Under the pieces are notes generated by a model. It did no database searches and was not told where the DNA came from. It saw only the letters and a program-made list of their open reading frames with translations. Positions 49,906 to 52,450 of a stretch of 64,000 nucleotides of DNA are shown here, piece by piece (the stretch's first letter is position 1; every line of letters starts with the position of its first letter). The position numbers and the translations under genes are program-made. Source of the DNA: Mesobacillus jeotgali (GTDB taxonomy: Bacteria > Bacillota > Bacilli > Bacillales > Cytobacillaceae); the NCBI RefSeq assembly GCF_014856545.2, contig NZ_CP109811.1, positions 4,706,001 to 4,770,000 of the forward strand, given 5' to 3'.

Positions 49906-49909
49906 AAGT

Positions 49910-49943
49910 AGAACCCATGGGACATTCCCATGGGTTCTGCTTA
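49910..49943. terminator. Bidirectional terminator
   Basis: Perfect AGAACCCATGGGA / TCCCATGGGTTCT with a 3-nt loop, between pepF and the convergent parR-like gene. Confidence 0.8.
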
Positions 49944-50537
49944 TTTATTCATTTTAGCAAGGAAATCCCCAAGAAGGTCATCCAAATCCTCTTCCTTCTC
50001 TTCGCTATCCTCTTCCGGTGACTCGGTCTGCTTGATTGATTCCCACACAAACGAATCAAGGTCATCATCATCCAGAGCATTGCTCTCAGCCGTTGAAGCA
50101 GTCTCTTCTATATACAGTGAGTCCTCTGCTGCAGTTGATGCCGGAAGATCCATCTCTTCTTCCTGAAGATACAGAGCTTCATCAATTTCTGTTGACTTGC
50201 TATTCAAGGATGCAAGCAGTGCTGTGGCCCGTATTGGGTCTGTCAGCAGGTGATATACGATATTGCCCAGCAAAGCTTCTGAATGCTCATGCTTGATCCA
50301 ATCCCGTTGCGATTTGCTGAGATTGCGCGGGAGGGGAATGGTAATCGTCTCGCGTTCCCTCGAATATGAATTCCCTACACCTTGCAGGACAAAATCAGCA
50401 ATCTTGCTGGAAAAATTCCTTCTCTCGGTTTCTTTCAATTTTTGAAGATGCCTTAAAATATGGTCAGGTGTATCAGAAGGAACGCGGAACGATAGTGCCT
50501 GTCCTCTTTTAATCTCATTTGGGTTGGTTTTTTTCAT
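49941..50537 (-). CDS. ParR-like ribbon-helix-helix DNA-binding protein
   Basis: 198 residues. N-terminal residues about 12-55 (ALSFRVPSDTPDHILRHL, then KIADFVLQGV) fit a ribbon-helix-helix fold; a second basic/helical block follows (LPRNLSKSQRDWIKHEHSEALLG), and the last about 80 residues are very acidic. In type II partition systems ParR binds the centromere and its C-terminal tail contacts the actin filament; this protein has the right layout and lies 14 bp after the actin-like gene. No direct ParR similarity is claimed beyond fold and position. Confidence 0.65.
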   Translation of the reverse strand: MKKTNPNEIKRGQALSFRVPSDTPDHILRHLQKLKETERRNFSSKIADFVLQGVGNSYSRERETITIPLPRNLSKSQRDWIKHEHSEALLGNIVYHLLTDPIRATALLASLNSKSTEIDEALYLQEEEMDLPASTAAEDSLYIEETASTAESNALDDDDLDSFVWESIKQTESPEEDSEEKEEDLDDLLGDFLAKMNK

Positions 50538-50551
50538 AGAATCACCTTATT

Positions 50552-51727
50552 TTAGCTTTTAACAGGTTCAGAAGCGGCTTTGCTGCTCTTCTCTGATTTC
50601 TTAACATAATCCATGATGAGCTTGTAGTAAGCATTGGCCATCATCCAGATGCTCTCTTTTTCATCCTCAAAGAATTCAATGTTATAGCCATCCAGATTAT
50701 TGTTCAATGTCTTAATGTAATCCTTTAGGACGGTTGCGCCGCCGCCGACAAAATAGCAGATTTCAGTCTGAGAGTTTTTAGCCCAGACATTGCGAAGCAG
50801 GCGGTATTGCTTTTTAGCCAGTTCAAGAAGGATACGATCAGTGATATCATGGACGCTTGTCCGGCTTCCCTTAACCATGATATGGTTGCGGTCATTCTTG
50901 CGCGTGATGATTTCTACTACATCTGTTCGGCTGTCCAACTCCACACCATGCTTGCTGCGGATTTCTTCCCTGATTTGTTCCAATGCCTCAGAAACACCAA
51001 GATTGAAGCCCTGCGCTTTGTCATCATCAACATTGCGGTTCTTGATGACAGCGATATCAGTAGATAATCCGCCGATATCCTGGATCAGGATCCTTCTATC
51101 AATTAAATCCTTGTTGATGATTTTAAGGCTGTTATCCATTACTAGATTGATATAAGCAGCGAAGCCCTCAGGGTATACCTTCACTTCATCAAATTTAATA
51201 TTAACTTTCAAACCCTGGTATTTAGGCGTTACGAGGAACTCAACCTGATGGACGGACCCAACTAGTTTAGAACGGTAGCCTGCATCTTTCCCTTCCTTTA
51301 CTTCACGAAGTGGCAGTCCAGTCCCTAGTGTATAGTTTGCATCGATGACATTCTTGCTTTTTGAAAAAAGCTTCGCATTATCTTCATTGACTGCATCCAA
51401 TGCAAGAGTAGCAAACAACATAACTAAAGTCTGGTCTTCCTCGGACTTGCTGCTTCCCGGATCTAGTTCTGTCGCATTATCACTTTTAGTCGCCAGATTG
51501 CCAACACGATAAATAGCGTTATTTTCCTTCAGGGCAGGGGAGTGGACACGAATATGGATTCCATCAAGAGGATCTTTCGTATCAAGCTCTTCGATACCGA
51601 TGACAGGACGGTCTTCTGTGTCCCTTGCTACGATATTAGGAATATTTAACTCATTATCAAATTCTCCAAAAATAGCTTTAATAGAATCGTTACCAACATC
51701 AACAGCCGCAATTCTAGATTTCGTCAT
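50552..51727 (-). CDS. ParM/AlfA/Alp7A-like actin ATPase
   Basis: 391-residue actin-fold protein of the ParM/StbA class. Phosphate-1 loop AAVDVGNDSIKAIFG at the N-terminus, phosphate-2 IQDIGGLSTDIAVI (about residue 215) and adenosine motif YFVGGGATVLKDYI (about residue 330). These proteins polymerise into filaments that push apart plasmid copies. Start 51727 is used because AAAAGGA (51743-51737) touches the other ATG at 51736. Upstream lies an iterated DNA array that may be its centromere and promoter. No plasmid replication gene is in the window. Confidence 0.85.
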   Translation of the reverse strand: MTKSRIAAVDVGNDSIKAIFGEFDNELNIPNIVARDTEDRPVIGIEELDTKDPLDGIHIRVHSPALKENNAIYRVGNLATKSDNATELDPGSSKSEEDQTLVMLFATLALDAVNEDNAKLFSKSKNVIDANYTLGTGLPLREVKEGKDAGYRSKLVGSVHQVEFLVTPKYQGLKVNIKFDEVKVYPEGFAAYINLVMDNSLKIINKDLIDRRILIQDIGGLSTDIAVIKNRNVDDDKAQGFNLGVSEALEQIREEIRSKHGVELDSRTDVVEIITRKNDRNHIMVKGSRTSVHDITDRILLELAKKQYRLLRNVWAKNSQTEICYFVGGGATVLKDYIKTLNNNLDGYNIEFFEDEKESIWMMANAYYKLIMDYVKKSEKSSKAASEPVKS

Positions 51728-51759
51728 TTCTATCATTCCTTTTCATTAATCTAAGTTTA

Positions 51760-52013
51760 TGTATACTCACTTACTATTTTAAAGGTAAAGGTAAATAATA
51801 GATACTGCAAGCAGAACAAGTAAAAAGAAATATAAATGTAAACATGTAAACATGCTGTAAACCTTAAGGCTCATTGTATACACAATTGTACACATTGATT
51901 ACAAAGTTGTTTACATGTTGATTTATAGGTATGTATACAACTTTGTATACACGTAAACGTTATTGTACACATCTTGTTTACAGTTTGTATACATGTTTAC
52001 TTTTATGTATACA
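51760..52013. repeat. Centromere-like iteron array (parC-like) upstream of the actin gene
   Basis: About 13 copies of an 8-bp palindrome TGTNNACA (TGTATACA, TGTAAACA, TGTTTACA, TGTACACA) lie at 51837, 51845, 51856 (last base off), 51875, 51887, 51908, 51932, 51944, 51964, 51975, 51986, 51994 (last base off) and 52006, with worn copies at 51760, 51896 and 51952. Successive steps are mostly 11-12 bp or 8 bp, so most sites face the same side of the helix. This is how ParR-binding centromeres are built, and the order array-actin-RHH gene is that of parC-parM-parR. Confidence 0.75.
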
Positions 52014-52019
52014 AATGAT

Positions 52020-52450
52020 TAACGGCTACTTTTTTTCTATTAATTTCCACAAAACCCTTTCCGACTCCCCTCCCCTACCCTCTCTTTTTATTGGGAGTTT
52101 TTAAGCTAATACCGTAAAGGTTTAAGGGTATCCATAAAAAAGTAGATAGAATTCAATCTGATGTTCCGGCGGAAAATCATTATTAATATCGAACAAATTA
52201 TAAAAAACGATACTGAAATTTGCGGTCGCAGTTCAGGACTAGGGTAGAAAAAGCAAAAGTAATCTCAAATTAGCTAAAAGAAATCCAGTAGCGTTTCAGT
52301 CAGTGGAGTTATATAAGAATAGGCAGACCCCCCTCCCCTATCGATATAAGGTAGGAAAATCATTGTATGATGCCGTCGAAGGATGACGAGAGAGGAAGAA
52401 GATTGCAAATTTAAAAGAATAGCCAGGTCAATGCCTGGCTTAAAGGGGGG
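52020..52450. other. Gene-free region after the iteron array
   Basis: About 430 bp with C-rich and AT-rich patches (CCCCTCCCCTACCC near 52070; CCCCCCTCCCC near 52330). I find no gene, RNA, hairpin array or transposon end here apart from the phnA terminator at 52420-52442. It may be the remainder of the partition locus or an old insertion boundary. Confidence 0.4.
52420..52442 (-). terminator. Terminator of the PhnA-like gene
   Basis: AGCCAGG / CCTGGCT stem, 6-nt loop; ATTCTTTT follows on the minus strand. Confidence 0.6.

Follow-up and report, generated by a model that had tools for sequence, protein, structure and literature searches.

The closest described relatives of the locus reported here are the Alp7A-class ParMRC partition systems of plasmids, among them pBM69 of B. 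methanolicus, a 24.7-kb B. subtilis plasmid and a 216-kb Peribacillus plasmid, in which a palindrome array is followed by parM and then by parR. Chromosome-encoded ParMs are also on record: Dh-cParM of Desulfitobacterium and Cb-cParM form filaments in vitro, according to PMC12270681 (2025). We analysed 64,000 nucleotides of the chromosome of Mesobacillus jeotgali (contig NZ_CP109811.1, positions 4,706,001 to 4,770,000 of the forward strand), referred to below as the window. An initial annotation, made from the letters alone, had placed in it an actin-fold gene of the ParM/AlfA/Alp7A class, an adjoining gene for a ribbon-helix-helix protein with an acidic tail, and an iterated palindromic array directly upstream, in the order parC-parM-parR. 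The positions of the open reading frames (ORFs) and of the array uphold this order, which runs on the minus strand from 52013 to 49941 and is that of the plasmids. The features, in window positions, are as follows.

51837..52013, minus strand: parC-like array of 14 GTNNAC palindromes (11 of them TGTNNACA) in steps of 8, 11-12 and 19-24 bp; candidate ParR-binding centromere.
51784..51810, minus strand: conserved promoter-like element separating the array from parM, which reads TTGCAG-N15-TTTACC here and TTGAAG-N15-TATACC in consensus; tentative, as its spacing is short.
50552..51736, minus strand: parM, Alp7A-class actin-like ATPase of 394 aa; likely start 51727 (391 aa).
49941..50537, minus strand: parR, 198 aa, with two predicted strand-helix-helix units, an acidic linker and a conserved C-terminal helix ending in LLGDFLAKMNK.
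49906..49942, no strand assigned: strong hairpin terminator, common to the end of parR and the convergent oligopeptidase gene.

Because all three components recur, identically ordered, on the three plasmid relatives, the locus, as judged from the homology of those parts, is a type II (ParMRC, Alp7A-class) partition system. Type II systems usually reside on low-copy plasmids, a trait that the class does not require. Here the host genome is a single contig of 4,835,561 bp (4.84 Mb) with dnaA at its start, which disposes of the possibility, left open initially, that the contig is itself a plasmid. The reading that we consider moderately probable is that the chromosome acquired a complete ParMRC system at an early date and has passed it on ever since, and that ParR would bind the array while ParM filaments, working in parallel with ParABS, would place or separate the region near the origin.

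The plasmid ParMs are 42-43% identical to the window ParM and have in common with it the motifs DxGN, DIGG and GGG, which we take to be actin-type nucleotide-site motifs. The plasmid ParRs are homologous to the window ParR over its first 100 residues. They measure 139-151 aa and end in FAKxTFLxFDDDD or alike, whereas the ParRs of 80 chromosomal relatives measure 189-208 aa. The chromosomal ParR has a longer acidic tail ending in LLGxFLxxMNK, a motif absent from the three plasmid ParRs. The arrays differ as well, with about four sites on each plasmid and up to ~14 here, about three times as many.

Chromosomal ParMs as a kind are already known. As here, Dh-cParM and Cb-cParM are encoded on the chromosome together with a ParR and are conserved within a group, according to PMC12270681; by that description the window locus is a chromosomal ParM (cParM) too. 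Cb-cParM likewise has an upstream array, which in that case is bound by ParR. Even with E values up to 1 admitted, sequence searches did not link the window ParM to Dh-cParM. The clade described here extends over about half of an order, and the accessible text of PMC12270681 names oriC once only, in a reference title. That text also states that B. tropicus Bt-cParM is conserved in several Bacillus species and, in its Discussion, that ParCMR systems are 'yet to be implicated in chromosome segregation'. Set against that paper, an order-wide, near-origin clade with an enlarged array appears to be the new part, Bt-cParM being a possible member of it.

Two further chromosomal systems bear comparison. 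According to PMC12645912, FcmBC of filamentous cyanobacteria descends from a partition system of plasmids and influences morphology; the paper uses the word parC once, in its general introduction. FcmBC/CorMR resembles the window locus as a plasmid partition actin fixed on the chromosome with its partner gene downstream, and differs from it in its cell-shape role; the window ParM scored 33.3 bits against the FcmB morphology actin family (NF052678), below the NCBI cut-off of 300. The CorM entry 9rmi was among the entries met in searches with the window ParM. FcmB and CorM presumably represent one system. ParABS (Soj/Spo0J) is, like parMR, an origin-linked chromosomal partition system, with unrelated proteins.

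The assignment of ParM to the Alp7A class was borne out by Pfam, in which the 394-aa protein scored 131 bits against a cut-off of 22 for Alp7A_like_C (PF22128) and also passed the curated cut-offs of MreB-like_C, ALP_N and ParM_N. It matched PHROG 691, 'partition protein', at 3.8e-42. An alternative start at 51727, 9 bases inside the frame, is preceded by a well-spaced Shine-Dalgarno sequence (AAAAGGA-N9-ATG) and gives 391 aa, in keeping with the 390-391 aa of most listed relatives. The best structural matches of the predicted ParM were ParM proteins, Dh-cParM1 included; with a predicted local distance difference test (pLDDT) score of 60.5 the model is weak, and owing to this low confidence it suggests, as support only, the same class. 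Elsewhere in the host genome (~2.836 Mb; L082, 1459-3059) lies a second actin-like gene of 406 aa with an ALP_N domain and 26% identity to parM by alignment, followed by a 127-aa ORF without family; a second match was obtained in 18 of 21 genomes of the host genus.

The iterated array directly upstream of parM was likewise confirmed. Fourteen GTNNAC sites occupy 175 bp (51838-52012), whereas shuffling 51820-52020 10,000 times yielded 0.47 sites on average and never more than 5. Close TGTANACA/TGTNTACA pairs number 10 in the whole 4.84-Mb host genome, 8 of them in the array, and a stricter array pattern occurs genome-wide at two places, both within it. Site spacing is phased near 10.8 bp, about one helical turn. 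Its coherence is 0.379, whereas 200 random placements gave no value above 0.099, a comparison that, the loci being related, gives no probability. All 80 relatives carry 3 to 12 TGTNNACA sites within 500 bp upstream of parM; in the 21 of 81 upstream regions that were aligned, the sites stand in register, the array is interrupted by a gap, and a promoter-like element follows the array on its downstream side. Twenty further genomes hold 1 to 10 TGTNNACA sites, where the remainder of each stretch predicts 0.04-0.24. From its sequence, the GTNNAC array is a candidate ParR-bound centromere. A sigma-70 promoter scan of the region returned 8 promoter-like sites where 6.9 were expected, that is, chance level. 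The remaining two close TGTANACA/TGTNTACA pairs of the host genome (2691038-2691072 and 4365169-4365204) each lie in a palindrome-like stretch of about 35 bp.

ParR passed no Pfam or NCBIfam cut-off and had no significant PHROG match, and a search of PDB sequences, with one sequence and with the alignment, returned nothing significant. Profile comparison showed it to be homologous to the protein encoded directly 3' of parM on the three Bacillales plasmids (E 5e-19 to 1e-29). A structure model built from 62 sequences (pLDDT 59, low confidence) has a strand at 14-18 with helices at 25-37 and 42-56, and a second unit with a strand at 64-68 and helices at 75-82 and 84-99; beyond residue 99 the model continues with more helices as far as 127 and an acidic stretch that is poorly predicted, and closes with a C-terminal helix at 185-197. 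The two strand-helix-helix units (14-56 and 64-99) would suggest a fused ribbon-helix-helix pair. Of the initial description, the adjoining gene and the acidic tail of its 198-aa product stand, and the ribbon-helix-helix fold is weakly supported. Structure searches had been proposed for both proteins; ParM found its ParM matches, and the ParR model no clear match among solved structures. Most positions of the C-terminal LLGxFLxxMNK are invariant in the 62 sequences, and the motif is altered in one distant relative (L152). Since the C-terminal peptide of R1 ParR has been solved with ParM, as the title of PDB entry 4a62 states, the conserved C-terminal helix is, by analogy, the likely ParM contact.

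The distribution of parM was taken from sums over genome search tables, with orthologues defined by E <=1e-200. In the host family 164 of 193 genomes match parM, 156 of them as orthologues, and in the host order 214 of 397 match, 201 as orthologues. Across the class, 70 of 398 genomes match; 24 do so at 77% identity or more, including 8 outside the order. The next full-length match stands at 43%, with a single 63-residue fragment (48%) in between, and the chromosomal ParM clade is therefore sharply set apart. The Alp7A C-terminal domain was absent from all 14 control genomes, B. subtilis included. Searches reported one internal stop codon in some parM orthologues (G110, G139, G338, G606 and others), which may reflect true inactivation, the choice of frame or an error of sequencing.

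The two genes occur together in 80 of 80 relatives. Compared with six relatives at ~87-92% protein identity, the window parM differs at 58-70% of comparable fourfold sites and at 8-13% of residues, and a closer relative differs at 22% of fourfold sites and 1.5% of residues, differences that point to strong purifying selection on parM. Median identity to the window is 87% for ParM and 88% for DnaA over 55 genomes, with a Spearman correlation of 0.69 (0.59 in the 50 outside the genus); the comparison left out the host genome itself, genome G001 and five genomes in which the DnaA match was broken or partial. Across 81 loci, distances between ParMs follow those between ParRs (Mantel r 0.71; largest of 999 permutations 0.065). 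A tree of the 81 ParMs is consistent with vertical descent, the genus labels being too mixed for proof (35 label changes against a minimum of 11). Rows labelled Lysinibacillus and Ureibacillus inside the main ParM clade may be transfers or misnamed genomes. Three records titled Chryseobacterium sp. ISL-80, Paenibacillus bovis and Paenibacillus sp. BSR1-1 (L001, L025 and L029) fall within the Bacillaceae tree, and their titles look misassigned.

Synteny in relatives, proposed initially as a check, proved consistent. Of a sample of 65 genomes in few contigs with a known parM position (35 + 26 + 4; G001 left out), 64 have parM at a distance of 25-154 kb (median 67) from Spo0J or Noc, whichever is nearer, with no change of strand or side. 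The 190-kb zone to the left of Spo0J was compared among eight genomes, which represent seven GTDB-type families and two orders; four of them served as references. The first 28 kb are common ground, 22-24 of the 33-38 ORFs per reference being present in all seven others. Beyond 28 kb, no ORF of any reference other than parM and parR recurs in all eight zones; when four such zones were searched for the 53 other window ORFs, only 9, 6, 4 and 3 of them turned up. Next in frequency come genes that are presumably DUF423, hemQ and pta, which still follow parMR, at 93-190 kb, in 6 to 7 of the 8 zones. Because these genes behind parMR keep their order, parMR occupies a long-standing place in the chromosomal backbone, amid rapid gene turnover, and passive inheritance explains much of its steady nearness to the origin. 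Selection for this nearness is possible; steady nearness as a sign of such selection was dropped, since the backbone order after parMR is also kept.

Relatives on mobile DNA are more distant, with one exception. PLSDB holds 37 plasmid records that match ParM, the best at ~43% identity and none at 60% or more. In each of the three plasmid relatives examined, parM is followed by a homologous parR as the next gene and preceded by a mini-array with sites 11 bp apart, in one case of the GTATAC type, resembling those of the window, and in two of the GCATGC/GCATAC type. Among 50,697 phage records there was no ParM match at E 1e-5. A phage origin was rejected, as only two overlapping contigs of a viral collection match and these carry conjugation genes. 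The contigs (86 and 116 kb) represent one metagenomic element whose parM (L196, 9995-11137; the same element as L193-L195) is 79% identical to that of the window. Just upstream of this parM is a mini-array of TGTATACA/GCATACA sites, and no recognisable parR lies within 10 kb. On one side stand conjugation genes (TcpC, an AAA_10 ATPase and Replic_Relax), on the other pectate-lyase-like and tropism-like proteins. A peptide-pattern search of viral contigs found no ParR relatives. The element may borrow the host ParR.

A working chromosomal partition system would be expected to show such a set in its sequence: a phased multi-site array, a ParR homologue and a motif-intact filament protein, retained as a unit close to the origin across much of an order. 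We picture a ParMRC system acquired by the chromosome from a plasmid-type source long ago and then passed on with it. ParR would bind the palindromes side by side and so form a partition complex, its acidic linker holding out the conserved C-terminal helix, which would capture the end of a nucleotide-driven ParM filament. Growth or shrinkage of that filament would push or pull the array and the origin-proximal left arm, alongside ParABS/Spo0J. By binding upstream of the promoter, ParR probably controls the expression of its own operon as well. The initial proposal of a host filament system for a chromosomal locus fits the data, to which the near-origin location is an addition; chromosome movement by ParM is inferred. 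Stated more broadly, and more tentatively, an actin-filament system with a large phased centromere beside the origin may, in about half of one order of Bacilli, help to separate or anchor the origin region beside ParABS as a second, actin-based segregation machine, with at least one mobile element mimicking the array and perhaps using the host ParR. In any case a machine of plasmid type has here turned into standard chromosomal equipment across much of an order, and a widespread, intact clade with a defined centromere candidate near the origin makes an actin-filament role in moving a bacterial chromosome directly testable.

Several results weigh against partition as the role of parMR. It is missing from about half of the order, and in one genome (G019) parM lies ~0.8 Mb from ParB, on the other side. 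The arrays are weak by the TGTNNACA motif in some distant genomes, with 1-3 sites in 6 of the 20. The conserved gene order behind parMR and the lack of a clear structural match for the ribbon-helix-helix fold of ParR count on the same side. ParB-type genes are kept in 66 of 66 genomes searched, and parMR is therefore no replacement for ParABS. A literature search that took in few subscription papers and no preprints found no study of this parMR family, and in the literature searched we found no binding, polymerisation or phenotype data for it.

The presence of ParABS in all genomes searched also suits a repurposed cytoskeleton, in which ParM filaments serve cell shape or the envelope with ParR as partner and the array is only an operator for its own operon. 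The array does lie directly upstream of parMR, and plasmid-derived FcmBC provides a precedent for an effect on morphology. However, fourteen phased sites are many for an operator and hardly needed by a mere autoregulator, the plasmid-type arrangement of array and ParR has been kept, and ParM misses the FcmB family cut-off; we regard this explanation as unlikely. A use specific to sporulation, with parMR capturing the origin region at the cell pole or forespore and dispensable in growth, draws on the fact that the hosts are Bacillus relatives and on the position of the locus within the origin-proximal chromosome region, which is the first to enter the forespore; about half of the order, moreover, does without parMR. 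The upstream element at best resembles a weak housekeeping promoter, which speaks against such a use, and we give it a small chance.

A slightly smaller chance goes to action on mobile DNA, whereby the chromosomal ParR and array would support plasmids or elements with similar arrays or, by incompatibility, disturb them. Related palindromes do occur on the plasmid relatives, and the conjugative or phage-like element described above combines a close parM and a mini-array with no nearby parR. Such close elements are rare, however, among the plasmid, phage and viral records searched, and conservation at the level of DnaA exceeds what an occasional task would explain. That the locus is a decaying plasmid or phage remnant fixed by chance, one of the two explanations first offered, we consider very improbable, although its parts are those of a plasmid system. 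This explanation was rejected on the intact state of parM and parR in the window, their constant pairing in relatives, the presence of parM in about half of the order, with frames intact in most orthologues, and purifying selection on parM. The surroundings agree with the rejection. The flanking genes encode oligopeptidase F, a YjdM/PhnA protein and an AcrB-type exporter, ordinary chromosomal neighbours as initially described, and no replication or mobility protein was found among the 21 scanned with Pfam of the 53 other window ORFs of at least 100 aa (one without family).

Three DnaA-family matches of equal score in the host genome (1402996, 2255299 and 4491701) are 280-aa frames, possibly an insertion-sequence ATPase in three copies.
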